From a virus, in the IMG/VR virus record IMGVR_UViG_3300030099_000838, positions 1 to 39,921 of that record: a stretch of DNA of 39,921 bases. One strand, 5' to 3'. Position 1 is the stretch's first letter, and the number at the start of each line of letters is the position of its first letter. The position numbers and the translations under genes were made by a program. The notes under the pieces are model-generated. The model ran no database searches, had not been told where the DNA came from, and saw only the letters and a list, made by a program, of their open reading frames with translations. Positions 2,620 to 37,477 of this stretch are shown here, one piece after another.

Positions 2620-2697
2620 ATGAATAAACAAGCTTTGATAACGCATATTATTATGGTTATCTTAGGTGTTTTATGCATTTATTATCTTGCTTTTTAA
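2620..2697 (+). CDS. Putative single-pass membrane miniprotein (25 aa)
   Basis: The ATG at 2620 follows the previous stop without a gap (TAAATG), so translation could be by re-initiation. The 25 codons encode a short polar start (MNKQALITH) and then one continuous hydrophobic segment (IIMVILGVLCIYYLAF), long enough to span a membrane. The stop is followed at once by the AGGAG site of the next gene. Known phage miniproteins of this form include holin-like, superinfection-exclusion and membrane-remodelling peptides. I cannot tell which applies, or rule out a spacer that is not translated. Confidence 0.45.
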   Translation: MNKQALITHIIMVILGVLCIYYLAF

Positions 2698-2707
2698 GGA
2701 GAAACAA

Positions 2708-3124
2708 ATGAGACATTTAGAAATAATTGATTGGTTCAATAATTATACACCCTACACTATTGGTTTTGATAGATTAGTAGAAAGGTTAGCAGAAAATACA
2801 AATACGGATACTTATCCTCCGTTTAATATTGTAAAGGAGGATGCAGAAAAATTTAAGATAGAGATGGCAGTAGCTGGCTTTGACAAGTCTGAAATAGAAG
2901 TTACAGTAGCTGATGGCATGCTATCTATTAAATCTGTAAAAGAAAATAAAGATGATAACGATAAAATTTATCGAGGTATTTCTTACAGAAAGTTTCATAA
3001 AAAGTTTACACTAGCTGAAGATGTAGTTGTAAAAGACGCATCTTTGCTTTGTGGTTTACTTACTATTAAATTAGAAAAGATACTTCCTGAAGAGAAGAAA
3101 CCTAGAACGATTAAAATAAAATAA
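2708..3124 (+). CDS. Small heat-shock protein, Hsp20/alpha-crystallin family
   Basis: A 138-residue ATP-independent holdase that should bind unfolding proteins. The segment YPPFNI through GFDKSEIEVTV and DGMLSIKS matches the opening strands of the alpha-crystallin domain of IbpA-type proteins. YRGISYRKFHKKFTLAEDV and ASLLCGLLTIKLEK cover the second half, including the A-x-x-x-G-x-L signature. The C-terminal PRTIKIK gives the usual I-x-I-like tail. I start at 2708 and not at an in-frame codon at 2666, because an AGGAG site at 2698-2702 lies just upstream and family members begin with this MRHLE-type sequence. Its place just before scaffold and capsid suggests a role in capsid protein folding, though general stress protection in the infected cell is equally possible. 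Confidence 0.85.
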   Translation: MRHLEIIDWFNNYTPYTIGFDRLVERLAENTNTDTYPPFNIVKEDAEKFKIEMAVAGFDKSEIEVTVADGMLSIKSVKENKDDNDKIYRGISYRKFHKKFTLAEDVVVKDASLLCGLLTIKLEKILPEEKKPRTIKIK

Positions 3125-4776: not shown

Positions 4777-5919
4777 ATGACTAATGTACTTGGTGTACGT
4801 GGTGTAGGTGGACCAGCAGGTCCGGCTAGATCCACAGGCAAGGACGTTTCCCAAAGGGAAGACCTTGCTGATTTTATTACGATGATTACAAGGGACGAAA
4901 CTCCTTTTATATCATCTATCGGTAAAGCGAAAGCTTCTGCAATCTATCACGAATGGCAGACTGACGAACTAGAAACTCCTGGTGACTCAAGGATCGGTGA
5001 GGGTACCGATTACATTGAGCCTGTATCAGGTGGTGGTGCGACTGCAACTCCTGCAGTTGGTGCTAAGTTTGCAACTGATGGACCTAACCGAACACGACTA
5101 GGTAACTACACACAGATCAATGGTAAAACTATTGCTGTGTCAGGAACTAGACGAGCTGTTGATCAAGCTGGTGTAGCTGATGAGTATGCTTACCAACTTA
5201 AAAAGCGCGGAACTGAAATGAAGCGTGACGTCGAGCACGACATGATTCACTCACACAACGTTTCTGCTGCTGTTGGTAACCAAAATGCTAACGCCAGAAG
5301 TGCTGGTGGATACCAGTCCTTCATTAACTCTACTGACACTTGCGTATACGTAGGTGGGTATGGTGCTCCTGCAACAACTGCAGATGGTACTGGTAGAATT
5401 AGAAGTGCTGCTACTTCTGGAACTTCTCAGCCTTCTACAGGTTCTCTAGCATTAACAGACATCGACTCTGTTATGCAGAAAATCTATGAGCAGGGTGGAA
5501 CCGCTACTAGCATAATGGTATCACCAAAACTAAGGAGAGACTTCTCTGACTTAATGGTATCTGATACCGGTGTTAAGCGAGAAATCGGTTCCTCAGGACA
5601 GCTACGTCAATCTGTCGACGTATACATGTCTGATTTTGGTGACTTAATGGTAGTACCTAACTACATCATGGGTCTAACGAATGCCGTACAGCTAACAAAC
5701 TCTGCTGGATCACCTGGTAACCTAGGTGCTACAACTAACATGGCAGACAAGTCAGCGTTAATTTACGATCCTATGTATTTCGCTATTGCGAATCTACGAC
5801 CTCTACAAGAGGTGGACGTAGGGCAAAAGGGTGACTCAACTGTTGGAATGATGGTTGAAGAGCTTACACTTGAAGTACGTAATCCTAAGGGTTGCGGAGC
5901 TATCTACGGTCTTGCATAA
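4777..5919 (+). CDS. Major capsid protein, SU10/DUF5309-like HK97 fold
   Basis: A 380-residue shell protein. The N-terminal part has REDLADFITMITRDETPFIS followed by a YHEWQTDEL strand, the opening typical of DUF5309/SU10-type capsid proteins. The middle has the long helix region TEMKRDVEHDMIHS. Toward the end come a phage-typical VSPKLRRDF helix and SDFGDLMVVPNYIM, the usual fold-closing strand pattern. Codon choice here is less AT-biased than in flanking genes, as expected for the most highly expressed gene. A GGAGG site at 4763-4767 supports the start, and a strong terminator lies seven bases after the stop. The family name comes from recall of the sequence pattern. Confidence 0.87.
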   Translation: MTNVLGVRGVGGPAGPARSTGKDVSQREDLADFITMITRDETPFISSIGKAKASAIYHEWQTDELETPGDSRIGEGTDYIEPVSGGGATATPAVGAKFATDGPNRTRLGNYTQINGKTIAVSGTRRAVDQAGVADEYAYQLKKRGTEMKRDVEHDMIHSHNVSAAVGNQNANARSAGGYQSFINSTDTCVYVGGYGAPATTADGTGRIRSAATSGTSQPSTGSLALTDIDSVMQKIYEQGGTATSIMVSPKLRRDFSDLMVSDTGVKREIGSSGQLRQSVDVYMSDFGDLMVVPNYIMGLTNAVQLTNSAGSPGNLGATTNMADKSALIYDPMYFAIANLRPLQEVDVGQKGDSTVGMMVEELTLEVRNPKGCGAIYGLA

Positions 5920-5925
5920 GACTTT

Positions 5926-5955
5926 TGGGGAGGTTTAATCGCCTCCCCATTTTTT
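5926..5955 (+). terminator. Rho-independent terminator after capsid gene
   Basis: An eight-base stem (TGGGGAGG at 5926-5933 with CCTCCCCA at 5942-5949) has an eight-base loop and is followed at once by six T residues. It is the clearest intrinsic terminator in the window. It lies just after the capsid stop, so it would end or attenuate the portal-to-capsid transcript and lower expression of downstream genes. Confidence 0.88.
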
Positions 5956-5973
5956 AAATTAAGGGAGAGATAA

Positions 5974-6186
5974 ATGCCAGGTCATTACGGAAAAGATAAG
6001 AAAATGATGCACGGTGGTAAAGTACACTATAAGCCGGGCGGAGGAATGGTAATGGACGATATGAACAAAGTTATGCAGATGATGCATGGTGGTAGAGTTC
6101 ATGACGCTAAATACTATAAACATGGTGCTAAAGTAGCGGGTTGTGGACCAGCTAGGAATAAGCCTAACATGACTAAAAAAGCATAA
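5974..6186 (+). CDS. Small His/Met/Gly/Lys-rich protein (70 aa)
   Basis: The first gene after the terminator, with GGGAG at about 5963-5967. The product opens MPGHYGKDKKMMHGGKVHY and repeats a MMHGGKVH / MMHGGRVH motif, separated by a Gly-rich linker. It is strongly basic and rich in His and Met. I recognise the MPGHYGK style from small unassigned genes next to capsid genes in marine phages. Metal binding by the His/Met motifs is possible but speculative. The stop overlaps the next start by one base. Confidence 0.65.
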   Translation: MPGHYGKDKKMMHGGKVHYKPGGGMVMDDMNKVMQMMHGGRVHDAKYYKHGAKVAGCGPARNKPNMTKKA

Positions 6187-6853: not shown

Positions 6854-7194
6854 TGGGAAGGCAATATGAATTTAATTTTTCTAGTGCCACCGTTGATCCT
6901 AAAAAGTCTATAAAGGCTGGATATGATTTAGAAACCAACAATTGGCAAGCTACACAAGATGTAACACATTTTATTGAATCAGTAAAGCGAGATAGGGATA
7001 GAGAGGCTTACTTTGGTAAAAGCAAAATGGGTTATCGTAAAATGGCTACTATACCTGATATAGTCGCTATAAAAATAAAAGAGGATTATGGTATTGATTT
7101 ACATGATCCTGCCTTTATGCACGATAAGGACAAGCTTAAAAAGTTAAAAGTTATATTAAAAATGGAATATCCTCATCTGCTTGTAAATACATAG
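6853..7194 (+). CDS. Conserved phage protein, 113 aa
   Basis: A charged, probably helical protein. Its C-terminal half (IPDIVAIKIKEDYGIDLHD, then a Lys-rich helix ending MEYPHLLV) follows a pattern I have seen in unassigned proteins next to head-tail connector genes of marine phages. No enzyme motif or membrane segment. It lies just before the adaptor gene, so a head-completion or internal role is possible. Function unknown. Confidence 0.6.
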   Translation: MGRQYEFNFSSATVDPKKSIKAGYDLETNNWQATQDVTHFIESVKRDRDREAYFGKSKMGYRKMATIPDIVAIKIKEDYGIDLHDPAFMHDKDKLKKLKVILKMEYPHLLVNT

Positions 7195-7203
7195 GAGGGT
7201 ATT

Positions 7204-8070
7204 ATGACTTATACTGAACTCGTAGCTTTAGTACGCAATTGGTCTAACAGAGACGAAGAAGTTGTTAGTGATAACATTATTAAAGATTCTTTGAGATACG
7301 CAGCTGATAAGGCCTATAGAAATCTTAGAGTTCCTCCTTTAGAAAACGTTGCAACTTATAATAAAACAACTTTGGAAGCAGCTACAACTAATAACACTCA
7401 ACTACAATCTAGCAAAACTGAGATAAAGGTTCCATTTGATTTAATTGAAATAATACAAATAAAAGAGTTAGATTCTGCTGGTGGTGCAACTAGAGTATTT
7501 AATGAAAAGTTAGATGTTAGAACGTTTAACGATCCTACAGCAGAAAAGTACTTAGCTAATAACTACTTTACTAGAGAACGTAACTTAATATTTTTAACAC
7601 CTGGCTTTGGTGAAAATGCTTTTGGTAATACAGCAGACAGTATTGAGTTACTATATTATAGAAGATTACCTGCATTAGATGCTAAATATGCCGTAACAGT
7701 ATTAAACTTTACAGCGGGATTTTTAACTACCTCTGGTGGTACAACTCCGTTATTTTTTGTAAATGGTAATACAACTACTGCATATGCAACTCAATCAGAA
7801 GCTACAGCTGCTGATACAGGAAGCGCAGGTACAAACTCAGTTAATTATATAGGTACAGAAGTACCAAACTGGTTAAGAGACCAAAATGAACGCATACTAC
7901 TATATGGGGCATTAGTAGAAGTTTTTGCATTTGTGCAAGATGATCAACAAGCTGCTAAGTATAAACTAATGTTTGATAACGAAATTAATGAACTTAATAA
8001 CGAAGACAGGAAAAGAAATGCTTCTGGTGGTAATGTACAAATAAACTTTAACGGAAGAGGGTTGATATAA
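7204..8070 (+). CDS. Head-tail adaptor protein, SU10/P22-adaptor-like
   Basis: A 288-residue protein with an opening typical of phage adaptors: an N-terminal helix (YTELVALVRNW) and a second helix with DSLRYAADKAYRNLRVPPLE. A beta-rich middle contains KVPFDLIEIIQIKEL and RNLIFLTPGF, and the C-terminus is helical (ERILLYGALVEVFAFV and a following stretch). Such proteins form a ring under the portal and connect it to the tail nozzle. GGAGG at 7193-7197 supports the start. The SU10-like label is recall, in keeping with the capsid type, and other connector families with the same layout are possible. Confidence 0.65.
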   Translation: MTYTELVALVRNWSNRDEEVVSDNIIKDSLRYAADKAYRNLRVPPLENVATYNKTTLEAATTNNTQLQSSKTEIKVPFDLIEIIQIKELDSAGGATRVFNEKLDVRTFNDPTAEKYLANNYFTRERNLIFLTPGFGENAFGNTADSIELLYYRRLPALDAKYAVTVLNFTAGFLTTSGGTTPLFFVNGNTTTAYATQSEATAADTGSAGTNSVNYIGTEVPNWLRDQNERILLYGALVEVFAFVQDDQQAAKYKLMFDNEINELNNEDRKRNASGGNVQINFNGRGLI

Positions 8071-23562: not shown

Positions 23563-24288
23563 ATGGCAGTAGGTTTTAGAGGCAGTTCTTCATTAGGAGG
23601 ATCAACAGGTATAGATTTTGATAGTGATTATTTTGATATTCCAGTTACTCCGTTAAATAAAATAGTACCAAGAACAGACTACTCAGCTCCAGTAACGGGT
23701 GGTAATGAAGTAGCGTTAGGCAATACTTTTGATTCTGCTGCTTTTAATCAAAGCTATGATGTACCAGTAATAGATCCTGCTATGTATGGTAGTTCTATAA
23801 TGGACCGTAGCGAAGGACCTCCCATGTTATCCGAACCCGATTATTTTACCAAGGGTAAAGTTTTAACGGAGCAAGATATACAAAATTATTTAAATGATAC
23901 TGAAGGTTTTGTATATAATCCAAGCACAAATAACTTTGAAGGTGCCGGAGATTATACATACCCACTAAGTAAAATAGCTCCCGGTTATTCTGATACACAA
24001 GAAAAGCTTATGTTAGGTATAAAGCCAGGTGTAACAACTGGTGATCAGCTAAGAGATATAGAGTTAAATAGATTAAATACACAAAAGCTAGCATTTGAAG
24101 TTCCTATGGGTGAAGGTGTGGATATGTTTGATAATTATAATGAAGCCTATACAGGATTTGACAGCTCAGGAAATTTTACAGGAGCTCCATTGGATCTTGG
24201 TACGCAAGCTATGAATGATATACCTGACTACAGTCAACCTACACAAAGTGTATTTGATGAAGGTGGAGCTTTTGGAGGAAAACAATAA
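23563..24288 (+). CDS. Putative virion protein, low-complexity (241 aa)
   Basis: Polar and rich in Asp, Gly, Tyr, Ser and Pro, with repeated SDYFDIPVTP / SYDVPVIDP / SEPDYFTKG-like phrases that suggest an extended, poorly folded protein. It has no membrane segment and no enzyme motif. It sits between two ejection-type genes with a one-base overlap to the next. It could be an internal or linker component. Function unknown. Confidence 0.5.
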   Translation: MAVGFRGSSSLGGSTGIDFDSDYFDIPVTPLNKIVPRTDYSAPVTGGNEVALGNTFDSAAFNQSYDVPVIDPAMYGSSIMDRSEGPPMLSEPDYFTKGKVLTEQDIQNYLNDTEGFVYNPSTNNFEGAGDYTYPLSKIAPGYSDTQEKLMLGIKPGVTTGDQLRDIELNRLNTQKLAFEVPMGEGVDMFDNYNEAYTGFDSSGNFTGAPLDLGTQAMNDIPDYSQPTQSVFDEGGAFGGKQ

Positions 24289-27260
24289 TGCAGCTTAAAA
24301 AGTTTACAAGAAAAGACCGACATGGGAATATGATGTCTTTTGAATTTGACGTACCGCAAGCTAATGTACCTGCTATGCAATCAATTCCTATGTATGACCA
24401 TCCAGGCGAACCTAAAGGTACAGATACCGTGCCAGCTTGGCTTACACCCGGTGAGTTTGTAGTAAACAAAGAAGCCACAGAAATGTTTGGTCCTACAATA
24501 AAAAAGATGAACGATATAGGTAGGCAAAAACAAAATCAAAACAAAGCTATGTACGCACAAACAGGTACAGAAGTACTATCTCGTGGCTTATTAGATGAAG
24601 ATGAAGCATTCCAAACTCAGCTTAATAAAATGCTAGACAAGTACGAAGGATCAGAGTTTACTAAAGATAAGCTATATAACATTATAGATGGAGAAAGTAG
24701 CTTTGACCCTACTGTTAAGAACAAAGAAAGCAGTGCTACTGGTTTATTTCAGTTTACTGATACTGCTATAAACGATTTAAAAGATCAGGGTAAGATAGAT
24801 AAAGACTTTACTACATCCGATGTTGCAAGTATGAGTCCCACTGATCAATTAAAACTGTATGAAACATACTTAGACAGATGGAAGTATGGTGGAGATGCGC
24901 ATTTAGGAATTATGCAAGCAGCTCCTGGTAAATATTTTGAAAAATTTAGAAGTGGTGATAACAAAGGAGACTTAAATCAAGAGGTTTTTGCTAAAGGTAG
25001 TGACAGCTATGAACGAAATAAAGTTTGGGCAGGCGATGATGGCAAAATGACTTTTGCTAGTATCTCAAATTACTATGATAGTAGAGCTAAAGATAAAATA
25101 CCTGGTGTTACTGTGGCAAAACTTCAACCAGATACGTCTGCTAGCCCTACACAGGTGGCCGCTGACGCGTCTTCAGTACCTTCTATGAATATAGGTATAC
25201 CGCCAAGGGACATGTCCTCTATGGAGCCGATTGCAGGGCCAAGTTCTGGTAGAATTGCTAGAGTTATGGGTAATAGACAGCCATCTAATGAGTATACTAA
25301 CTTCCTTAGAAACTTAAATATAAACAAAGGGGTTATGCCTAACAGAAATGTTACGCTAGATACAAGACAAATACCTGGTGTAAACCCAATGTTAGACATA
25401 AATAAACCAGCTGGCGTACCGATACCTACAGGAGTAGTTGATGGTAAGCGTGTAGCGTTAACACCTGAATATTTAGATGCAATGCAAGATAATGATATGG
25501 GTGGATTAGGGGCAGACTCGCAAGTATTTAAAGATTTTGTTGGTAGTAGGTTAAGAGTGCCTGTAACTAAAGCGCCTCCTAGTCAAGTTATACCTAAAGT
25601 TTCAGAGATTGCTGATATACCAGGTGTTGCAACTGTACCAGATGAGCAAAAGAGAGGTCAAACGCGTCAACGATATGATCTATACGAAGGTACAGACAGA
25701 CCAACAAGTCAACAAGAACTTGATCGAAGAGCTATGGAAAACTTTAATCCTCCAGAACTAGATAGACTTGTTGATAGTATGCAAGCAGATATTAATAAAC
25801 AAAATGCACCACAGTTTTTAAGTGATGACGAAATAAAAAGATCTGAAGGTCTTGGTAAAGAGATTCAAGCTATTGATGATTTTGCTAGAAGAGCTGGTAA
25901 ATATTTAGTTAGCCCTAAAGAGTTTAAAAACGAAAGAGGTCTTACAGGTAAACAAGAAGAAAAGGCACAAGCAGATTTAGCAAAGATGGAAAAGCTAGAG
26001 CCTATTGAGAAAGGCTACGATCAAAAACAAAGAGTTGCTACAGAAATAGAGAAACAAAACAAAAATCAAACAGGGCCTGGGCCAGATCAGCCAGGTAATA
26101 ATGCTGATCCTGATACTGTTAAGAACACAGGGTCTAATGCTCCTGCTGCAGAACAAAATAAAACAACTAGTTTTCTAAAAGGTTTGTTTGGTAGCTTGTT
26201 TGACACTGATGAACTAAAGCGTATGGCTGTAATGTATCTTGGTTCTAGATTAATGGGCTATAGTCATGGTGGTAGTTTAAGTTTTTCTGTTAAAAACTAC
26301 TTACAAAGAGTTGATGCTAAAGAAAAGGCTGCTGTAAAGTTTGCAACAAGCGCGGGTGCAGCTAAAGCTTATACTGCTAAGTCACTAGCTAAGTATGCAA
26401 AGAGTGGTAACATAACAGATTTAATTCCGTTACCTAGACAGCTCATATCTACAGGAAATGCTACTACTTTCTATGGTAATAAAAACGGCAAAGACTTTAA
26501 AATACAAGTTATGGAGTATAAAGCTGGTGCAGGAGATAACGCTCCTAGAGTATTTTTAGATAAGTTTGGTAACGAGCATAACCCTCTTGACTATGACTTA
26601 GATCCTATATATAATAAAAACAGCCCTAAACATAGAGATGCTTTAGACTCATACACAAAAACTTTTGCAGATGTTATGACTTCTGTTAGAGAAAAAGTTA
26701 GTCTTTTAAGTATAGATAAAGGAAAGAAAACGTATGTAGACGATGTAATTCCTGCAACAGATGCTGGAGCTGTAGCATCTTGGGCATTAGATAATAAAGT
26801 AGAACTACCTAGAATGCCTCAGTTAATTGAGTTAGCTTACAGAGATATGGTAGAAGATGCAGGTAGAGGATACAAAGCTACTAGTATTGTTGGCTATTTA
26901 GATTCTCTTAAAATTAGAGAAACTATTTTAGATGGTACAGAAGCAGATAGACTATTTAGATTAGAGCCTGATACAGAGCAAGAAAAAGCTAGAGGTTTTG
27001 GTAAGCCTGTTGACGCTAAAGAGTTTACAAGGTTACGAGATAACGCAGTTAGATGGTTAAGAATTACTAAGCCTGAGCTATCTGGAATACCAAATCAAGA
27101 AGTAGCTATAGGAGCTTTTCAAGAGCTAGTAAGTCAATGGAATACTTTAACTGATGAGCAACAAGCTCAATGGAATAAGAAGGCTTCTAAAACAACAACT
27201 GGTTTTATGGAATGGTCTAAAGCATCTATAAACAATGTACTTAGCACAATGGTGGATTAA
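24288..27260 (+). CDS. Internal virion protein with lytic-transglycosylase-like domain (990 aa)
   Basis: Residues about 36-80 carry GTDTVPAWLTPGEFVVNKEA, a phrase I recall from many phage tape-measure and internal proteins. Residues about 115-240 look like a soluble-lytic-transglycosylase fold: candidate catalytic Glu136 in DGESSFDP, then SSATGLFQFTDTAINDL. This combination should cut peptidoglycan to let DNA cross the wall, as T7 gp16 does. A long Gln/Pro/Lys-rich linker (about 270-640) leads to a helical C-terminal third with a YSHGGSLSFSVKNYLQR segment. It is followed by the nuclease-domain and polymerase genes (one-base overlap with the first). Activity depends on Glu136, which is intact. 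Confidence 0.72.
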   Translation: MQLKKFTRKDRHGNMMSFEFDVPQANVPAMQSIPMYDHPGEPKGTDTVPAWLTPGEFVVNKEATEMFGPTIKKMNDIGRQKQNQNKAMYAQTGTEVLSRGLLDEDEAFQTQLNKMLDKYEGSEFTKDKLYNIIDGESSFDPTVKNKESSATGLFQFTDTAINDLKDQGKIDKDFTTSDVASMSPTDQLKLYETYLDRWKYGGDAHLGIMQAAPGKYFEKFRSGDNKGDLNQEVFAKGSDSYERNKVWAGDDGKMTFASISNYYDSRAKDKIPGVTVAKLQPDTSASPTQVAADASSVPSMNIGIPPRDMSSMEPIAGPSSGRIARVMGNRQPSNEYTNFLRNLNINKGVMPNRNVTLDTRQIPGVNPMLDINKPAGVPIPTGVVDGKRVALTPEYLDAMQDNDMGGLGADSQVFKDFVGSRLRVPVTKAPPSQVIPKVSEIADIPGVATVPDEQKRGQTRQRYDLYEGTDRPTSQQELDRRAMENFNPPELDRLVDSMQADINKQNAPQFLSDDEIKRSEGLGKEIQAIDDFARRAGKYLVSPKEFKNERGLTGKQEEKAQADLAKMEKLEPIEKGYDQKQRVATEIEKQNKNQTGPGPDQPGNNADPDTVKNTGSNAPAAEQNKTTSFLKGLFGSLFDTDELKRMAVMYLGSRLMGYSHGGSLSFSVKNYLQRVDAKEKAAVKFATSAGAAKAYTAKSLAKYAKSGNITDLIPLPRQLISTGNATTFYGNKNGKDFKIQVMEYKAGAGDNAPRVFLDKFGNEHNPLDYDLDPIYNKNSPKHRDALDSYTKTFADVMTSVREKVSLLSIDKGKKTYVDDVIPATDAGAVASWALDNKVELPRMPQLIELAYRDMVEDAGRGYKATSIVGYLDSLKIRETILDGTEADRLFRLEPDTEQEKARGFGKPVDAKEFTRLRDNAVRWLRITKPELSGIPNQEVAIGAFQELVSQWNTLTDEQQAQWNKKASKTTTGFMEWSKASINNVLSTMVD

Positions 27261-30200
27261 TGGCAATATCAGCTGATAGAGTAGCAGAAAGGTTATTAGG
27301 TAAAGATCTTAATGACGATTATGCTTTTATTGACGGAGATACTCTGGCTTCTACTAGTGAAGTAGATCAATATGGTAATCCATTAAAGTTTAGAATGAAA
27401 GGCATAGATGCGCCGGAAGTTACAAAAGTATTTGGTGCTGATAACGTTGCATTAGGAACTGCAGGATCTGAAAAAGCTAATGAAGCGCTAATGCAGTTAG
27501 CAAAGAAAGAAGGTTTTACTAACGTATTTCGTACAGGTAAGTTTGATCCTAATGGTCGTGAGCTAATAGATTTACAGGATGACAAAGGTAGAAGTTGGGA
27601 ACAAACGTTAGTAAGAACTGGTGTATTAAATCCTACTAGATATTCTTCTGAAGGTGCAATAAGATCCTATAAAGCAGCTCAAGCACTAGGCACTGACGGT
27701 CTAGGAGAAAACTACGACTTAGCAAGAAACGTTATTGCAGAAGCTATAGCTGATGAAACAAAGTATGAGCAAAGATTTAGACAAAAAGCTATAGATGAAA
27801 CACAGCTTGCATATACTGGTGGCCTATACGCTTCTAATAACGTTATGTTTAGAGATCGATCGAGAGATTTTGAAAACAAAGCTATGAGTCCTTTTTCTAC
27901 AGCTTGGGATATAGGTCTTACTGGCGCTATAGAAGGATTATATGGTGCTGTCGAGCTTATAGGAGAAACTTCTGGTTGGGACTGGGCTAAAAACGTAGGT
28001 GAAGCTGGTATATATAGAGCTAGAGAAAAGCTACAAAAGAATCCTGAAGTAGTTACTAGTTATAAAGATATTGATGGGTTCTTTGGTAAAGAAGGATTCT
28101 TGCAATATGTTGCTAACAACGGTGCTATATCTTTACCTTATATGGCAGCTACTATAACTGGTGCAGTTGCTGCTCCTTATGTAGGGGCTAGTGCGTTAGG
28201 TGTTGCAGCCACAGGTGCTGTGTTATCTCCTGTTGCTTTATATACAGGTACAATATGGAACGACCAAGAAGGTGATAATAAAAATGCTTACTTAGCTGTA
28301 GCCGGTGGTGTATCGCAATCTGTATTAGATAGATTAGGTCTTAGGTTTTTGAATCCAGCTGCATTGTTAACTAAAGAAGGCAGACAACAAGCTATTACAG
28401 CCATGACAAATAATGCTGATGACGTAGCAGGTAGAGCGATGCAAGCTAGAAATAGAGCTTTATTTGGTAGAACTATTACTAGCGAAGAAGATGCTAGAAA
28501 AGCGTTGCTAACATTATCAAGACAAGAAGTAGCTAAATACGCTGATGATGCTGCAAGATTTGCTAAGAATCAAATTACTGCTAGAAACGTGGCTAGAAAT
28601 CAATTAACTCGTATTGCTAAAGCAGGTGCTGGTGAAGGTATAACAGAAGCTTTACAAGAAGCTATTGGTTATACTGCTGCACATACTGCTAATGGTTTTA
28701 GAGACTGGGATGCTAATGAGTTTAAAGATAGACTTATAGATGCTACTATTGCTGGTACATCTCTTGGTGGTGCTATATCAATACCAGGTGGTGTATACGA
28801 TTATGGTGCATGGGTAGATGTAGCATACAGAACTGGGCCAGATACAGGTCGACAAACGTCTGATATGGGTAGATTAGCACAACAAGATATAGAGGCTAAT
28901 GGTCAACAGTATAATGTACAACAAGAAAATGCAAGAGTAAAAGCTGCTACAGATAATATTAATCAAAGAGTAGAAGCACTACAACAAAGATTATCAAATA
29001 GACGATTAAACAGAAGAGAAAGACAACAAGCAGAATCTGAGTTAGCAGAGCTAGGTGGCGTAGATCTTAACGATAGAGCTGATGCACACGTAGCGGCTAA
29101 ACAAGACAGAGCTGTAGGTCAAATTGCTAAAGACTGGTGGAAAGGTATACCTGGTTTATGGCGAGGTATGACTAGATTTATGTTTGATAACCAAGGTGGT
29201 ATACAACAAGACTCTGTAACTGCTAGAATACTAGGTGAATCTGTAGGATCTAACTTACAACGATCTGTTTCTGGTGAAACATATGAAAACAGAAAACATA
29301 ACTTAATTTCTGAGATTAAATACAGACTAGGAGATGTGTCAGATTTACTTGCTGCGTTTGGTAGAACTGATAAACGTAAATCTAGATTAGAATTTAGTGA
29401 GCAATACTATGAAGTATTTGAAGCTGCAAGATCTAGAGCAGCCAGAGAAAATAGAGATATAAACTGGGATATAGACTTACCTGAAAACTTACAACCTTTT
29501 GCTAATGCTTTTAGAAATTTTCATAATAAACTTATAGAAACAGGTGACAGACTACATAACATGCAAGCAGTTCATAATCCTGAACTAGGTTATGTAAATG
29601 ATTATTTATCTAGGTATAAGTCATTAGATAAACTAGCTATAGAAAACAATAGAGCTGAGTTTGAATTAGCACTTACTAACATTATTAATGACGAAGGTCA
29701 ACAAGTACTTACACCACAAGCAGCTAAAGAACTTACAGATCAAATACTACAAATAGATGGAGCTGATGTTCCTTCTAACTTTACACTTGATGGTGGGTTT
29801 TCTGTTACTGACAGATCTACGTTTAGACCACAGTCGCATAGAGGTAGAACATTAAACCTTTCTGATAGAGCAGAGTTTAAGCAGTTTATGGAAAGAGATA
29901 TATTTACTAACGTATCTAATGCTGCTAAGTCTGCTGTAAGATATACAGTATTAGAAGAGTATGTAGGTAGTAACAATGCTAAGCTTAATTATAGATTAAA
30001 TAAAATAGAAGAAGAGCTTATAGAGTCTGGTAAGTATACTGTTGATGAAGCAAGAGCTAGAGTTAATAAACTTGCGTTTGATCTTAAAAACTACTTTGAT
30101 GCTGAGTCAGGTAACTACAAGAGAAACATACCACCTATACTTAGGCATGCACAAAAGAACATATTATTTGTAACTACTATTACTGGTTTGCCACTAGCTA

Positions 30201-31354
30201 CACTATCTAATTTTGTTGAGCTAGGTTTAACTAGTGTTGGGCTAACACAAAAACAAATTTTTGGTGAGAAAGGTAGTATTAACTCTATAGCTAGATCGTT
30301 TGCAGATGAGTTTGGAAATACTGCTAATAGATTGTATGGTACTATAGCTAACCAACCAGCACCACATAAAAGAGGTAGGTTTGGTCATGCTATATTAAAG
30401 AAGCTAGGTTTCTTTGATTGGGAAGTTGGTGCTGCTCATACAACAGGTGTTAGTGAAACAGGTAGATGGCACCAAAGAATACTTGATATGTACTTTAAGA
30501 CTATCTTATTACAACAATGGACTAACGCTGCACGTGCTGCAAGAGCTGCTATAGCTTTAGATTACATTAGTGATAAGGTAGCTATAATGGTAGCTGCAAG
30601 ACAAGCAGATATAACAACTAACGAGTCTCGAGAAGCAGAAGAGGGGCTAAGAAACTTAGGATTAGACACACAGTTTTTACTTAGATACCATACTGGTTTT
30701 GTTAGAGACGAGCAAACAGTATTACCTAATCAAGATGTAAGACAGCAGTGGGAAAGAATGATTAATGATGCTACATTTAACTTTATAAATGAAGCTGTTG
30801 CATTACCACAGTCTGCAAACAGACCTTTGATATTTCAAGATCCAAGGTTTGCTTTGTTTACACAGTTTCAAGGTTTTATAGCTACGTTTACTGCTAACCA
30901 TATACCTAAAATGTATACTCAGTTAGCTAAACGTGGTACTCCAGCAATGAAATACAACATATTTGCTACAGTATCTACAATGATACTATTAGGATTTGTA
31001 TCTCAACACCTAAAAGATTTATTAAAGTACGGAGAAACTACACCTTACTTTAAAGGTATGGAGTATATTAGAAGAGGGGTAGGAGCTAGTGGACTACTAG
31101 GTACAAGTGAAAGAGTTATTGACTTTGTTTTCCCAATGTATGACAAAAGATATGGCTCAAATGTAGAATGGTTCTTTGGTACAATAGCTAGTGAATCAGC
31201 TGGTGTAAGTAAAGCACTTAGAATAGGTGATATAACCGCTGATGTCATAACAGGAGAAAAGCCACCAGAAACTATAGTTAAAGTTACACCGATAGCACAA
31301 GTTGCTTATCAACAAATAGATAAACAAGCTTATAAATGGGGTTTTGGAGAATAA
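27260..31354 (+). CDS. Large ejection protein with N-terminal staphylococcal-nuclease-like domain (1364 aa)
   Basis: Residues about 20-150 match the thermonuclease fold: D25-G-D27-T, then R45-M-K-G-I-D50-A-P-E53, then NGR100-EL and a LVRTGVL helix. These correspond to Asp19, Asp21, Arg35, Asp40, Glu43 and Arg87 of staphylococcal nuclease, with identical Arg-Asp-Glu spacing. Around residues 285-330 are hydrophobic helices (SLPYMAATITGAVAAPYVGA and more), and a further membrane-like segment lies near 1240 (IFATVSTMILLGFVSQHL). The C-terminal part, with FALFTQFQGFIATFTANH, resembles large internal virion proteins of T7-like phages. I infer ejection into the cell with an active nuclease head. It lies between the transglycosylase-domain gene and the putative virion RNA polymerase. 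Confidence 0.75.
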   Translation: MAISADRVAERLLGKDLNDDYAFIDGDTLASTSEVDQYGNPLKFRMKGIDAPEVTKVFGADNVALGTAGSEKANEALMQLAKKEGFTNVFRTGKFDPNGRELIDLQDDKGRSWEQTLVRTGVLNPTRYSSEGAIRSYKAAQALGTDGLGENYDLARNVIAEAIADETKYEQRFRQKAIDETQLAYTGGLYASNNVMFRDRSRDFENKAMSPFSTAWDIGLTGAIEGLYGAVELIGETSGWDWAKNVGEAGIYRAREKLQKNPEVVTSYKDIDGFFGKEGFLQYVANNGAISLPYMAATITGAVAAPYVGASALGVAATGAVLSPVALYTGTIWNDQEGDNKNAYLAVAGGVSQSVLDRLGLRFLNPAALLTKEGRQQAITAMTNNADDVAGRAMQARNRALFGRTITSEEDARKALLTLSRQEVAKYADDAARFAKNQITARNVARNQLTRIAKAGAGEGITEALQEAIGYTAAHTANGFRDWDANEFKDRLIDATIAGTSLGGAISIPGGVYDYGAWVDVAYRTGPDTGRQTSDMGRLAQQDIEANGQQYNVQQENARVKAATDNINQRVEALQQRLSNRRLNRRERQQAESELAELGGVDLNDRADAHVAAKQDRAVGQIAKDWWKGIPGLWRGMTRFMFDNQGGIQQDSVTARILGESVGSNLQRSVSGETYENRKHNLISEIKYRLGDVSDLLAAFGRTDKRKSRLEFSEQYYEVFEAARSRAARENRDINWDIDLPENLQPFANAFRNFHNKLIETGDRLHNMQAVHNPELGYVNDYLSRYKSLDKLAIENNRAEFELALTNIINDEGQQVLTPQAAKELTDQILQIDGADVPSNFTLDGGFSVTDRSTFRPQSHRGRTLNLSDRAEFKQFMERDIFTNVSNAAKSAVRYTVLEEYVGSNNAKLNYRLNKIEEELIESGKYTVDEARARVNKLAFDLKNYFDAESGNYKRNIPPILRHAQKNILFVTTITGLPLATLSNFVELGLTSVGLTQKQIFGEKGSINSIARSFADEFGNTANRLYGTIANQPAPHKRGRFGHAILKKLGFFDWEVGAAHTTGVSETGRWHQRILDMYFKTILLQQWTNAARAARAAIALDYISDKVAIMVAARQADITTNESREAEEGLRNLGLDTQFLLRYHTGFVRDEQTVLPNQDVRQQWERMINDATFNFINEAVALPQSANRPLIFQDPRFALFTQFQGFIATFTANHIPKMYTQLAKRGTPAMKYNIFATVSTMILLGFVSQHLKDLLKYGETTPYFKGMEYIRRGVGASGLLGTSERVIDFVFPMYDKRYGSNVEWFFGTIASESAGVSKALRIGDITADVITGEKPPETIVKVTPIAQVAYQQIDKQAYKWGFGE

Positions 31355-31355
31355 C

Positions 31356-34300
31356 ATGGCAACAAGGATAAATCCACAAAGTGGTTTAATGGAATTTGTA
31401 AAAGAACGAGAAGCTACGGGGGCTGTTTTAGATGAAAGACTTAGAAACAAAACACCCGTAGAGTCTTTACAACAAGAAGGCCCTGCAACTTTAGCCGTAA
31501 AACCACAACCTATACGTCCTACACCAGCACCTTTTGTTTTACCTGAAGAACAAAAAGGTAGAGTAGATCAGACAGCAGCTAGAGATAGGTTTGCACAACA
31601 AATAGCACAACAAGATGCTGCTAGACTTGCTCAAACGGCTGAGCTACAAAGAGAAGCTGAAAGAGTAAAGCCTATTAGTGAAATAGAGCCTGATGTTAAA
31701 GAGTTTGATGCTTACGAAAATGATGGTTTTGGCGAAGCTATTACGAGATCTAATAAATACATTCAGCTACTTTATGATAAGCTAGAATCTGGTGCTACAG
31801 TTACAGGAGCTTACTTATCACCAGCTCAAGGACTACCTATAGCTGCAGGCTTATCTCCTGTAGAAGCCGGAGAAGCTTCTGGTCAGTCAATAAACGTTAA
31901 CTCTACAAAAGGTATACTGTTTGATCCTAAAGGATTTAATGCAGGTAAAATAAGAGGTGATGATGTAACTCAAGTAGATCCGTTGTTTGCTAGAGTTATG
32001 TCTATTATGACTGAAAGGTTTATATATCAAAATCAGTACAACGCTAAACCTGATCAGCAAACAGATAATACAGATGATTTTACTGAAGCGACTTTACGTG
32101 AAACAGATCAAGTAAAACTAACAGATGAAGGTAAATTAAGACGTGGTTTAGGTAACCAACAGTTAGGTAGAGAAATATATAGAGCTTGGAAACGTGAACA
32201 AAACATAGCTCAAGGCAGACCTTCTGATGAGTACACTATGAAAGGTGTAACCGGAGATCAGTTTGAAACAATAGGTACGCTTGCAAAAGAAATGTATCAT
32301 GCTGCTAATCCTGAATTATATAATAGAATATCAGATTCTTTTAACAGAACAGTAGAATATGAGCTTACTACTACCGGTGCTGCTGCTATGGAGGCTGCTG
32401 AAAAAGCTTCTCCTGCTATATTTACTGGTTATGAAATAAAACCTTCATCTGCTCCTAGATCTAAGTTAGCACTTACTGAATCTGGGTTAGGAGAAGGAGC
32501 TAAGTATAGAAAAACTAAAACTACTTCTGTTGTAGATCGTAAAATGGCAGAGATAGAGGAAGCTGCAGAGAATATGCATAGCGTTGCTCATGGTGTAGAT
32601 CCTCTTAGAAGAAAGCTTTATATACAAATAGCCGTACAAGTTCTTACTGGTATGAAAGATAGAACTAGGCCACCTGAACTAGGCGACTTACTTAAGATAG
32701 GTCCAGCTAAGTTTATAGCATTTAAAGGTGAGTATGCTAAAAAGCAACAAGACGATCCTAATCCTGATTATAATCCTGCATTTGAAATGGAAAAGCAAGT
32801 TACTAGGTTTATAGAAAGTTTAAACACTATTGGCACTTATAGTAATAAAGCTAATCATTTAGATTTTGCCGTGCAAGAACTACAAAGTCGTATGCATGCT
32901 ACACAAACAAGATTTAATCCTCAACTAGTTCCGTGGATTAGGTTTGTAACAGGAGGTATTAGACCTCCTACTGTAAATCCTAATGCTAATACTCCTGCAA
33001 CAGTAATGTTTAAAGAGTTAATGGCAAAACATTTTTTACCAGGTGCGGATAAGTTACTTCCTGAAAATAGAGTTGCTGCATTTGATACTGAATGGAACAG
33101 CCCTAACCATGGCGCTTTTGCTAATATTGTTGCTGATGGAAAAGGTATAGCAGATAGTTTACTAACGCCTGAACAAGATCAAGATGCTATAACAAAGCTA
33201 AAACAAATAAAGTTAACAGAAAAAGGAGTTACTGTACCTCCTGAGTTAGCTAATATACCAAGACTAACAATTGGAGATTCATTAAAGAGTAAAGCTATTG
33301 GTGAAGAACTAGAAGGCTTAAACTTAATTGAAGCTGCTCATGAGCTATATCAGTTTGATAAAGCACAAAAGAACAACACAACGTTTAAGAGCAATATATC
33401 TGTAGAACTAGATGGTAAAACTCATGGACCAGCTAGTAACCTAATGCAATTAGGATCTATGAAGGCTGCATTTAGAGCTGGTGTTTTGAGAAGAGAAGGA
33501 GCTACTAAAAACTTAGATACTATACCTATAAAAGAATTGTATCAAGGAGCACAAACAGACGACGAGTTAGCTGCTGGTGATATTAGAGATGGTATGAAGT
33601 ATTTCATGGAAGAGAATGGTGACAAACATGCTCAAAACTATTTACCTAATAACGCAGCTTCTGCTCACTTAGTTAGTATACTTAAGTTAGCTTTAAAAGA
33701 TAGGGACAACTTTCTTAAAAAGCCACCTATGACGCTTGCTTATGGTCAGTTACTTAAAAACTTAGATGCTGCTATATATGAAACAGTATTTACTGGTCCT
33801 CAGTCTGTAGCAATAAGAAACATTATAAACGGCAACTCAGATTTACCTTCTATATTAGATAAAAAGATACAACAAAAGATGGATGCAGAAGGTGGAATGC
33901 TGATACCGTCTAGAGAAGATATGGTAGTTGAGTTCTTACACGATATATTAGCAGACTCTATTGATGCTGAGTTAGATCCAGGTGTCGTACAAGTAGGACA
34001 ACTACTAAGAGCAAACAATGTTGTTGCTATGTTATCTGATGAGGTTATAAAAGTTAAGAATGCTATAGGTATTGACAACTACATTGGTGCTAAAAGCTCT
34101 GTTATGAAAGATGTAGAAGGAAATATTGGTGTAGTATTCGGAGATACTTCTAATGTAAAGAGAGCAGGTAACGTACCGTTGTATAGAAGTATGCCTTCAG
34201 GTAGTGCTATAAGAGAAGGTAAGCCCGGTGGCTGGGGTAGAGGTAGAATTATACCTGCTGTTATCCAAGGTATAGATGGTGCCTGGATGAATAGAATGTT

Positions 34301-34931
34301 TACTGGTAAATCGTTTGCGCAGTTAAAGCGTAACTACATGCTACCTATTATGGATGCTGTTAAGACAGATCTAGATGGAGCAGCAAAAGTACGTGATCTT
34401 GCTAATAAAAATTGGTGGGATGTTATCAACGAGTATTCTTATGTCGACAGTATTATGGGAGACTGGACACCCGGAGCTATAGAAAGGTTTAGAACCAAGC
34501 TCAAAAATATCGGGGATACTAAGGTTGAAATAAGTATGGATAATGAATATAGAGGATTTTTCTTTCTATTACATGATCTTGAAAAAACACCTCCTATTTT
34601 TGATTCGGGTAATCTTATAAAAACTTTGTATGATACTATGGAGCACCCTCCTAGAAAACAAGGAGTAGCCGTTGGAAAATACGAAGCGTTTAAAAAATCT
34701 AGAGCAGCAAAAGCTGCAGATAAATTACTTCCTAATGCTGCAAGAGCACAAGGAAGAACGTTAAATGAACTAACTGGTGATCAAATGTTAAGATTGTTTG
34801 ACAATATTATAGGACCTAATGGCTTAAACCTTGAGTCGCGCAATCGTCAAACAATGAAAGATGTCGGTGAAGCTAAAAATAAACTTACGAGAGCCGCTAA
34901 GGGCTCCCGTATATTGCAAATAGATATGTAA
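31356..34931 (+). CDS. Putative virion-associated single-subunit RNA polymerase, N4 vRNAP-like (1191 aa)
   Basis: I start at ATG 31356, six bases after GGAG at 31346-31349. Motif A is ISVELDGKTHG with Asp686. Motif B is LKKPPMTLAYG with Lys788, Tyr796 and Gly797; the eight-residue Lys-Tyr spacing and MTLAYG equal T7 Lys631-Tyr639. Motif C is PAVIQGIDGAWM and then LPIMDA with Asp1000. A DxxGR-like ELQSR (508-512) followed by FNPQ (520-523) aligns without gaps with the same region of the T7-like polymerase encoded at 35114-37477. Both catalytic aspartates are present. About 190 residues follow the last Asp, nearer to N4 than to T7. Residues 1-120 are Gln/Ala/Glu-rich and may serve packaging. 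It is last in the ejection gene run. Polymerase activity and virion location are inferred. Confidence 0.78.
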   Translation: MATRINPQSGLMEFVKEREATGAVLDERLRNKTPVESLQQEGPATLAVKPQPIRPTPAPFVLPEEQKGRVDQTAARDRFAQQIAQQDAARLAQTAELQREAERVKPISEIEPDVKEFDAYENDGFGEAITRSNKYIQLLYDKLESGATVTGAYLSPAQGLPIAAGLSPVEAGEASGQSINVNSTKGILFDPKGFNAGKIRGDDVTQVDPLFARVMSIMTERFIYQNQYNAKPDQQTDNTDDFTEATLRETDQVKLTDEGKLRRGLGNQQLGREIYRAWKREQNIAQGRPSDEYTMKGVTGDQFETIGTLAKEMYHAANPELYNRISDSFNRTVEYELTTTGAAAMEAAEKASPAIFTGYEIKPSSAPRSKLALTESGLGEGAKYRKTKTTSVVDRKMAEIEEAAENMHSVAHGVDPLRRKLYIQIAVQVLTGMKDRTRPPELGDLLKIGPAKFIAFKGEYAKKQQDDPNPDYNPAFEMEKQVTRFIESLNTIGTYSNKANHLDFAVQELQSRMHATQTRFNPQLVPWIRFVTGGIRPPTVNPNANTPATVMFKELMAKHFLPGADKLLPENRVAAFDTEWNSPNHGAFANIVADGKGIADSLLTPEQDQDAITKLKQIKLTEKGVTVPPELANIPRLTIGDSLKSKAIGEELEGLNLIEAAHELYQFDKAQKNNTTFKSNISVELDGKTHGPASNLMQLGSMKAAFRAGVLRREGATKNLDTIPIKELYQGAQTDDELAAGDIRDGMKYFMEENGDKHAQNYLPNNAASAHLVSILKLALKDRDNFLKKPPMTLAYGQLLKNLDAAIYETVFTGPQSVAIRNIINGNSDLPSILDKKIQQKMDAEGGMLIPSREDMVVEFLHDILADSIDAELDPGVVQVGQLLRANNVVAMLSDEVIKVKNAIGIDNYIGAKSSVMKDVEGNIGVVFGDTSNVKRAGNVPLYRSMPSGSAIREGKPGGWGRGRIIPAVIQGIDGAWMNRMFTGKSFAQLKRNYMLPIMDAVKTDLDGAAKVRDLANKNWWDVINEYSYVDSIMGDWTPGAIERFRTKLKNIGDTKVEISMDNEYRGFFFLLHDLEKTPPIFDSGNLIKTLYDTMEHPPRKQGVAVGKYEAFKKSRAAKAADKLLPNAARAQGRTLNELTGDQMLRLFDNIIGPNGLNLESRNRQTMKDVGEAKNKLTRAAKGSRILQIDM
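34889..34908 (-). terminator. Possible leftward terminator inside the polymerase gene 3' end
   Basis: GAGCC at 34891-34895 pairs with GGCTC at 34902-34906 around a six-base loop, with one more pair beyond a mismatch. Read leftward, the hairpin is followed after about six bases by TTTATTTTT. It lies just beyond the last leftward stop (34932), so it could end that operon, while in the rightward direction it is coding sequence without a T-run. The stem is short and the T-run offset, so this is tentative. Confidence 0.3.
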
Positions 34932-35113: not shown

Positions 35114-37477
35114 TTATGAAAAGAAGTAGTCGCTATCTTGTATAGCTTCTACATCTAACTCCCCTAGTTTATAGTTGTAATTAAAGTTTTCAGGTTCTAG
35201 CAATAGCATTTCTGCTATATCCTTATAGAAATCCTTATGATTGTACATTTTAATGAACACTTCTTTAGTTAAACTTAATAAGCTAGCTACATCACAAGCG
35301 TGAGTAGAAAATGAATCATGAATTGCAGCAAAGTCACCGTCCCAATGATGGATAATAAGTGCCATATGAGCTGCGTCCATACTATGTATGAAGTTAGGGC
35401 TTATACCTGATGCAAAGCCACCAGGACTAGGTATCTTTTTACCATACACTAGCCTATGTTCTTTGCCTACGTGTTGTATCCTCATATCAGAGATCCAGCT
35501 TTTCCACTTTACGTCTTCCATTACGTAGTTTTCATAACGTACTGGGAAGCCGGAAGGCGTAGTCCATTCGACAACTGGCTCTTTCAAGTCAGATATTATG
35601 TGATTTGCTATTGCCTGTAGGTAACTCATAGTCTCGAGTGGACCTGGACACACCTCATCTATAGCTTTTATTAAGTTATATGACAAGTCGGTACAGTCAC
35701 TCATAGTAATATCGTACTTACTATGGAATCCTTCGGCATAACAATCAGCATACATGTTCAAAGCTATGGCTAAGTGGCCCGCAGAGTACGCTCTAGTCAT
35801 CGCTCCGCGTTTCGATATACCTTTCCTTATGTGTTTCATAGGCATGTCTCTCTGCGCGAACCAGTCAGGTACGCGAGATATCAATGCTTTAGCTGTTTGC
35901 ACATAAAAGTCCTTAGGTATATCAGTTTTTACTAAACCTACTAGCTCACCTGCCTTTTTATCCTTAGATATAGCAGCAAGGTGTTGCCAACCATTATTAG
36001 AACCATCAATAGGAATAGGTAGGCTTAAGTAATACACGCCACTTTCCTCTTTTTGATCCCATAAACCACACCACGCTTTACAACAAGCAAGAAAGCTTAC
36101 GCCTTTTTCTGCTTTGTCGTGTATAGTACGGTTATTCCAGGTGTTTCTAATGAAATCCTCATTATGAATTACCCATTTTACCCTATCATCGATAGTCATT
36201 TTGTCGACTGATATGTCTGTAAGTCCTTCATCTTCAAGATGTGACTTGTAATCAGCTTCACACCAGTCAGGTATGTTATCGATAGTATAAGATTGGTTGT
36301 ACGTACAAGCCGTATGTACAGCAAAATAGTATAAACCCTCTTCAGTCATCGGTTTTGCATTAGCAAATTTGAGTAGACCACGTTCCATATCTTTACCTTG
36401 ATAGTTTAAATATGACTCACGGTAGTATAGCCTGCCACGATAGTCTGCATCTACATACTGAAAGAAGACTTTATCCTTTAATGCTTCGGCTTTCTGTATA
36501 GTCATGTTGTATGCATCAAACTTACTACGGTTTTTAAGTAATACTAACTTAGCATTCCAGTGAGTAGCAGCTTCATCATACTTAGCCTGAGCTTTTTCCA
36601 ATAGCTTTTTGTTAGGCTTATTACGTAGCTTGTTAGTTAAACGTCGTAACTCGCTGTAATATTTCTTTTCCAAAGACTTATTGCCTAACTCTGGTTTAAA
36701 GACGGTATTATTCCAGTATAAGTCTTTGCCTTGTAACTCATCGTTGTTACCAAAAATGCAGTAACGGTAGTTCTTACCGGTCTCATCTGATACCTTTAAG
36801 GTTTCAGTTACAAACTTACGTTTGTTTTTCTTTACTGCTTCCAAGATGTCGTTATCAATAGTCCATGCTGTTCGTTGCAGCTTGTTTATTGCATTAACAA
36901 ATGGTTGATCTAACAGATCCTTGAAATCTTGGTCCTTATCATATCCCCAATGCTTAATAACAGGATGTCCGTTTTCCTGAAACAAATGATGGACACGATT
37001 AATTTTAGTAAATGAGGTATTTTGTATTAGTTCATTGACTACATCAGACGGTAATGATCCTATTTGTAACCACTTATCTGATGTTTCAATCATGTACGGT
37101 GCCCGGCTAAATGGCTTTTTACCTACCGGGTTTTTCTCCCATTCAACTTGCGCTTCAGTAGGAGCTCTAAATATTTTTATGTAACCACATTCATAAAAAC
37201 CTTCTAGAACTAGGTCGCCGACTGTTACGTCGGCTCTAAATCCTAGCTCTACACCTTGTCTTAATAATACGTTTTTGCCTATTGCAACTGAAGCTGCAGT
37301 AAGTTTACACGTAGCTGACTCAGATGTAGACGTTTTTCTAAAGTGATATTGTAGTATAGTTAATGCATCATACACCAGCTGTTTCGGCTGTAACTCGTGC
37401 TCGAGTACTAGCTTCACTGCCCACCTTTGAGGCGTGCTGAGTATCTTCTGCTCCAGATAATCTATTATATTCTGCAT
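35114..37477 (-). CDS. T7-like single-subunit DNA-dependent RNA polymerase (787 aa)
   Basis: All family motifs are present: D345-x-x-G-R349 in DADYRGRLYY; motif A LPIPIDGSNNGWQHL with Asp491; motif B ISKRGAMTRAYSAG with Lys556 and Tyr564; and motif C PNFIHSMDAAHM and AIHDSF with Asp721. The end DSDYFFS resembles the T7 C-terminal foot. It is about 100 residues shorter than T7 gp1 (883 aa), mostly in the N-terminal promoter-binding part. Ser565 replaces the Gly that follows the sugar-discriminating Tyr in T7. It should transcribe phage genes from its own promoters, and late genes are the obvious target. An AAGGAG site lies upstream of ATG 37477, inside the GIY-YIG gene, which overlaps it by 110 bases. 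Confidence 0.93.
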   Translation of the reverse strand: MQNIIDYLEQKILSTPQRWAVKLVLEHELQPKQLVYDALTILQYHFRKTSTSESATCKLTAASVAIGKNVLLRQGVELGFRADVTVGDLVLEGFYECGYIKIFRAPTEAQVEWEKNPVGKKPFSRAPYMIETSDKWLQIGSLPSDVVNELIQNTSFTKINRVHHLFQENGHPVIKHWGYDKDQDFKDLLDQPFVNAINKLQRTAWTIDNDILEAVKKNKRKFVTETLKVSDETGKNYRYCIFGNNDELQGKDLYWNNTVFKPELGNKSLEKKYYSELRRLTNKLRNKPNKKLLEKAQAKYDEAATHWNAKLVLLKNRSKFDAYNMTIQKAEALKDKVFFQYVDADYRGRLYYRESYLNYQGKDMERGLLKFANAKPMTEEGLYYFAVHTACTYNQSYTIDNIPDWCEADYKSHLEDEGLTDISVDKMTIDDRVKWVIHNEDFIRNTWNNRTIHDKAEKGVSFLACCKAWCGLWDQKEESGVYYLSLPIPIDGSNNGWQHLAAISKDKKAGELVGLVKTDIPKDFYVQTAKALISRVPDWFAQRDMPMKHIRKGISKRGAMTRAYSAGHLAIALNMYADCYAEGFHSKYDITMSDCTDLSYNLIKAIDEVCPGPLETMSYLQAIANHIISDLKEPVVEWTTPSGFPVRYENYVMEDVKWKSWISDMRIQHVGKEHRLVYGKKIPSPGGFASGISPNFIHSMDAAHMALIIHHWDGDFAAIHDSFSTHACDVASLLSLTKEVFIKMYNHKDFYKDIAEMLLLEPENFNYNYKLGELDVEAIQDSDYFFS

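Follow-up and report, generated by a model that had tools for sequence, protein, structure and literature searches.

A staphylococcal-nuclease domain at the head of a large, probably ejected virion protein in a group of marine phages

Introduction

Ejected proteins enter together with the DNA in phages N4 and T7, and some of them bring an enzymatic cargo along. The cargo known so far comprises cell-wall hydrolases, as in the ejected internal virion proteins of T7, of which one (gp16) has a transglycosylase, and RNA polymerase, as in the virion RNA polymerase (vRNAP) of N4, which to our knowledge has no staphylococcal-nuclease (SNase) domain. SNases require roughly millimolar Ca2+, which is supplied by seawater and probably by the periplasm, but not by the cytoplasm. 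Further enzymatic cargo of ejected phage proteins is found in the polyvalent proteins, which are large, multidomain and enzymatic, are encoded among late genes and are thought to be injected (PMC5512222). The words 'SNase', 'staphylococcal' and 'thermonuclease' are absent from the main text of that study, and a literature search for SNase in ejected or virion phage proteins, with subscription journals largely outside its coverage, returned no description. As far as the literature searched shows, a general nuclease as conserved ejected cargo is apparently undescribed.

Here we analyze a viral DNA stretch of 39,921 nucleotides, referred to as the window (IMG/VR record IMGVR_UViG_3300030099_000838), and its relatives. 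In this group of marine phages a domain of the DNA- and RNA-cutting SNase family fronts a large protein that probably rides in the virion and enters the cell with the viral DNA.

Results

Genome setting

Judged from its sequence, the window comes from a marine podovirus-like genome, with SU10-type portal and capsid genes, a class II ribonucleotide reductase, a T7-type RNA polymerase and a primase/helicase. Roseobacter phage CRP-7, an isolated podovirus of 58 kb that was described as the founder of a new group (PMC6918029), is the closest named relative for both the SNase-protein gene and the capsid. A near-identical phage (99.97%) is found on a viral contig of 55,997 bases, and as this contig overlaps both ends of the window, the remaining gene set could be read from it; among others, it has a 5'-3' exonuclease, RusA, a family A DNA polymerase, a thymidylate synthase and a cell-wall hydrolase. 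On this contig (L056) the thymidylate synthase, at 6870-7568 (-), and a methyltransferase, at 5273-6109 (-), lie in the replication region and might point to a modification of nucleotides or bases. Note also that a small heat-shock protein of the Hsp20 type is encoded between the portal and capsid genes of the window, at 2666-3124 (+; phrog_432, E=1.3e-40).

An SNase domain at the N-terminus

The open frame at 27260..31354 (+) encodes a protein of 1364 amino acids, with homologues at our loci L002-L005, L011-L031 and L039-L046 and in gp34 of CRP-7. A sequence-only reading of the window had assigned an SNase domain to its first 150 or so residues and had proposed profile searches and structure prediction as a check. 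Both were carried out and bear the assignment out, and the conserved motifs concur: sequence profiles and the predicted fold confirm, beyond chance resemblance, that the protein begins with an SNase domain, which spans about residues 20-125 (27317..27634, +). A profile of the first 166 residues and four relatives picked out staphylococcal nuclease among the PDB structures (profile positions 23-124, best E=2.3e-5), and a profile built from distant relatives alone did so with E=4.3e-7. The full single sequence yielded no PDB match up to E=1, and against Pfam PF00565 the window protein as a single sequence scored 17.1 bits, below the cut-off of 21 that is passed by the relatives L028 (24.4) and L045 (22.7) and by gp66 of Aeromonas phage phiA008 (29.9).

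An AlphaFold2 model of residues 1-167, calculated from 16 sequences, reached a pLDDT of 77. The PDB matches listed for it by Foldseek were SNases, with a probability of 1.00 and E about 5e-5, and VIA-align superimposed 113 residues on SNase at 3.9 A (Z 8.2); the extended Tudor domain of Tudor-SN (SND1) was also among the VIA-align matches. An SNase fold is thus found, though a partial one, with TM-scores of 0.43-0.51 at best, and these modest values are due to the poorly modelled loop that follows Asp50 (model loop 55-66).

All six key residues of SNase are present in the window protein, with the spacing of the known enzyme (R-5-D-3-E, D-x-D-T and D-x-x-G-R), as the sequence-only reading had it for the residues and for the Arg-Asp-Glu spacing. 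Asp25 and Asp27 in the DGDT motif (27332..27340, +; Asp19 and Asp21 of SNase) are invariant in 14 of 14 relatives, as is Arg100 (27557..27559, +; Arg87 of SNase). Arg45, Asp50 and Glu53 (27392..27418, +) correspond to Arg35, Asp40 and Glu43 of SNase; the arginine and the glutamate are again invariant, and the aspartate, a metal ligand, is retained in 12 of the 14 and replaced by asparagine in L040 and L045. Nuclease activity may be weak, lost, reduced or changed in these two. Among the 14 relatives, which extend down to about 25% identity, only 11 of 100 columns are invariant, including Asp25, Asp27, Thr28, Arg45, Glu53 and Arg100, so that five of the six catalytic residues fall into invariant columns (hypergeometric p=3.5e-5). 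The catalytic residues were retained while most of the domain diverged, and their conservation suggests an active enzyme. As evidenced by the dN/dS ratios of domain and body (0.17 versus 0.18 against L003, 0.32 versus 0.32 against L004), the SNase domain is under purifying selection equal to that on the body.

The helical body

The remainder of the protein, residues 170-1364 (27767..31351, +), matches the profile phrog_6958, a 'virion structural protein', with E=3.5e-23. Its counterpart in Pseudomonas phage PaP3 is orf19, annotated as 'constituent protein' and 'virion structural protein', which the family profile finds with E=4.6e-20 (Z set to 40000) in two main stretches that start behind the SNase part. 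In blastp, residues 229-502 (27944..28765, +) align with orf19 at 25% identity over 285 columns (E=8.6e-6), and a C-terminal segment, residues 1175-1261 (30782..31042, +), aligns with E=4.4e-4. The SNase domain thus looks like a module placed before a separate virion protein.

AlphaFold2 rendered the body almost entirely helical, with low confidence (pLDDT 49), and this model was left out of the fold search. Together with three hydrophobic stretches at residues 308-326, 968-986 and 1229-1247 of the protein it agrees with the earlier description of a long helical remainder with membrane-like segments. The same description had seen an end like that of T7-type internal proteins, and this found no support: neither hmmsearch --max with the SNase protein family nor blastp (E 0.8 or worse) related it to T7 gp14, gp15 or gp16, and it is PaP3 orf19 that the body matches instead. 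The fusion of an SNase domain to a large, probably ejected virion protein is well backed by profile, fold, conserved catalytic residues, the PaP3-type body and the synteny described below, whereas the resemblance to T7 is not supported.

Neighbouring genes

The SNase gene is enclosed by two large genes. The upstream one, at 24288..27260 (+), encodes a large protein of the virion block with an SLT transglycosylase domain at residues 125-173 (Pfam SLT, 24.3 bits, cut-off 21.3); the two genes share one base, the last of the upstream gene and the first of the SNase gene. At all loci with enough sequence the SNase gene has a large gene upstream and one that codes for 1140-1575 amino acids downstream. 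Hydrolase domains occupy the same place in relatives, but their type varies: the window shares SLT with L014 and L045, whereas L012 has phage lysozyme2 and CRP-7 a pesticin/lysozyme type. No hydrolase was recognised in the upstream proteins of L028 and L046, nor upstream for L019, L025, L039 and L040. Two loci have the lysozyme fused ahead of the SNase domain in a lysozyme-SNase-body arrangement (L028 9338-14173; L031 709-5301), and the lysozyme of L031 is similar to those that head the vRNAPs of N4-like Vibrio phages and an internal virion protein in Alteromonas phage H4/4.

The downstream gene, at 31344..34931 (+), overlaps the end of the SNase gene, and its product is related to N4-type vRNAP (phrog_2206, E=5.2e-6). 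Motifs A (ELDGKTHGP, near 33411) and B (KKPPMTLAYG, near 33720) of single-subunit RNA polymerases are present, and tblastn matched only N4-like phages of Salmonella and Shigella, in several cases at proteins annotated as virion RNA polymerase. A profile of six such downstream proteins matched the vRNAP of Salmonella phage SP-076 across motif A (E=6.8e-8) and also the downstream genes of L014, L019, L031, L039 and L040. CRP-7 gp33 and the downstream gene of L025 were not among the matches listed, and the L045 gene was not significant, so that the RNA polymerase partner is supported for part of the group only. A PDB profile search with the window product found no RNA polymerase; the relation came from the vRNAP comparison. 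Note that this is the second single-subunit RNA polymerase of the window and lies in the virion block, and that the T7-type enzyme is encoded separately at 35114-37477 (-).

With a peptidoglycan hydrolase upstream and a relative of N4 vRNAP downstream, the neighbours of the SNase gene fit an ejection module; the vRNAP is ejected in N4 (PMC5512222).

Distribution

In scans of viral contigs, one alignment (A2) found 24 loci and another (A6) 15, some contigs being common to both. Every complete relative examined is a protein of about 1260-1610 amino acids that begins with the SNase domain or has it right after a lysozyme domain, and whole records matched by Pfam SNase have one such match apiece. 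Among isolate phages only CRP-7 gp34 and phiA008 gp66 were found to be headed by SNase, and both are annotated as hypothetical. With the patterns used, the collection of bacterial and archaeal genomes contained no true relative; its one match, L047, was rejected as a chance match, as by eye it is glucose-6-phosphate isomerase-like. The N-terminus of the L040 relative found no match in the plasmid collection. This absence from cellular genomes and plasmids fits lytic phages. A search of whole records with phrog_8809, a profile of 2317 positions that includes an SNase-like stretch, likewise gave no match.

Discussion

Position, homology and company of the SNase protein suggest that it is packaged and ejected with the DNA, and most likely it brings an active Ca2+-dependent nuclease to the envelope or the cytoplasm of the host when the genome enters. 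We rate as somewhat better than even the chances that it is an ejection-type, LUZ24/PaP3-like virion protein whose intact N-terminal SNase domain cuts host or foreign nucleic acid when infection starts. The packaging, ejection, activity, target and self-protection that we infer for it would then take the following course. The three proteins of the block, cell-wall hydrolase, nuclease and RNA polymerase, would be loaded into the head and leave with the genome by way of the tail. Inside the particle a lack of free Ca2+, confinement of the nuclease in the core, or both would spare the phage DNA; the nuclease would cross the tail unfolded, regain its fold at the inner membrane or in the periplasm, where Ca2+ is present, and cut nucleic acid of the host (or other foreign nucleic acid) as infection begins. 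In a broader and more tentative scheme, to which we would assign clearly less than even chances, takeover would precede phage gene expression by means of an ejected kit consisting of a peptidoglycan hydrolase, a Ca2+-switched SNase for the destruction of host nucleic acid and an RNA polymerase for early transcription.

The Ca2+ requirement could cut both ways, in that it could spare the packaged genome and also limit degradation of the chromosome. The bacterial cytoplasm probably offers far less free Ca2+ than an SNase requires, and this speaks against breakdown of the chromosome as the chief task of the SNase protein. In addition, the phage encodes a 5'-3' exonuclease and RusA, so that the breakdown of host DNA need not depend on the SNase protein. 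An activity in the envelope is no less credible than an attack on the chromosome.

The chief rival is unlikely on our estimate: the nuclease would act mainly in the periplasm or outside the cell and little in the cytoplasm, clearing competing phage or plasmid DNA or extracellular DNA, or blocking superinfection. The Ca2+ dependence of SNases, the high Ca2+ of seawater and the periplasmic workplace of the partner peptidoglycan hydrolases all favor such a role, but few copies are expected per virion, and the infecting genome itself crosses the same space. An attack on host or foreign nucleic acid at entry is most likely and ranks first.

That the domain might be a non-catalytic OB-fold, serving in DNA binding or as a structural part of the ejection channel, seems to us quite improbable. 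OB-folds often bind nucleic acid, Tudor-SN uses SNase folds for binding, and the exchange of Asp50 for Asn in two relatives would be compatible with a loss of catalysis. The invariance of the metal ligand D27 and of R45, E53 and R100 across highly diverged relatives is however what is expected of an active enzyme. Still less probable is a role in processing the phage's own DNA, for instance trimming or nicking of an end at packaging or entry. The SNase protein would contact the genome end and is constant in the group, but SNases are largely non-specific and would endanger the genome, terminase and RusA of the phage already cover such tasks, and we found no precedent. Finally, since we infer the presence of the protein in the virion, it might be made late and act on the nucleic acid of the producing cell without being carried onward, but this is scarcely probable, as the gene belongs to the late virion block, orf19 of PaP3, the homologue of the body, is annotated as a virion protein, and a free nuclease would threaten the progeny genomes.

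An SNase that enters with the genome would raise the question of how a particle holds a non-specific nuclease next to its own DNA. The finding also opens an early attack on host nucleic acid to direct testing, with CRP-7 as a culturable test case, and suggests what large genes annotated as 'hypothetical' may do in marine roseophage-like viruses and an Aeromonas phage.

Comparison with known systems

The nearest counterpart is gp34 of CRP-7 (MK613349, QBQ72827.1), annotated 'hypothetical protein', which is about 25-29% identical to the window protein and, like it, combines N-terminal SNase motifs with the same body and lies between two large genes. The two loci differ in the pesticin/lysozyme type of the upstream partner in CRP-7 and in its downstream protein, which the RNA polymerase profile does not match. 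In Aeromonas phage phiA008, gp66 (OL774570, UIS74281.1; L050 823-6975) likewise has an N-terminal SNase domain, and its C-terminus resembles the body of L045. Unlike the window protein it comprises 2050 amino acids with a central HELGH motif, metalloprotease-like by eye, and the family profile search did not detect it. PaP3 orf19, the LUZ24-type virion protein of phrog_6958, shares the body and, with 1056 amino acids, is without the SNase domain. Toward T7 gp14, gp15 and gp16 the likeness is one of role, which would be analogous, and not of sequence; with N4 the link is the neighbouring product at 31344-34931, related to a vRNAP of about 3500 amino acids.

With the polyvalent proteins, finally, the SNase protein shares large size, a location among late genes, an enzymatic domain and presumed injection, which here would follow from genomic context only. 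As to recognised enzyme domains, the window protein has one, the fusions in L028 and L031 combine lysozyme and SNase, and phiA008 gp66 joins SNase to the HELGH motif.
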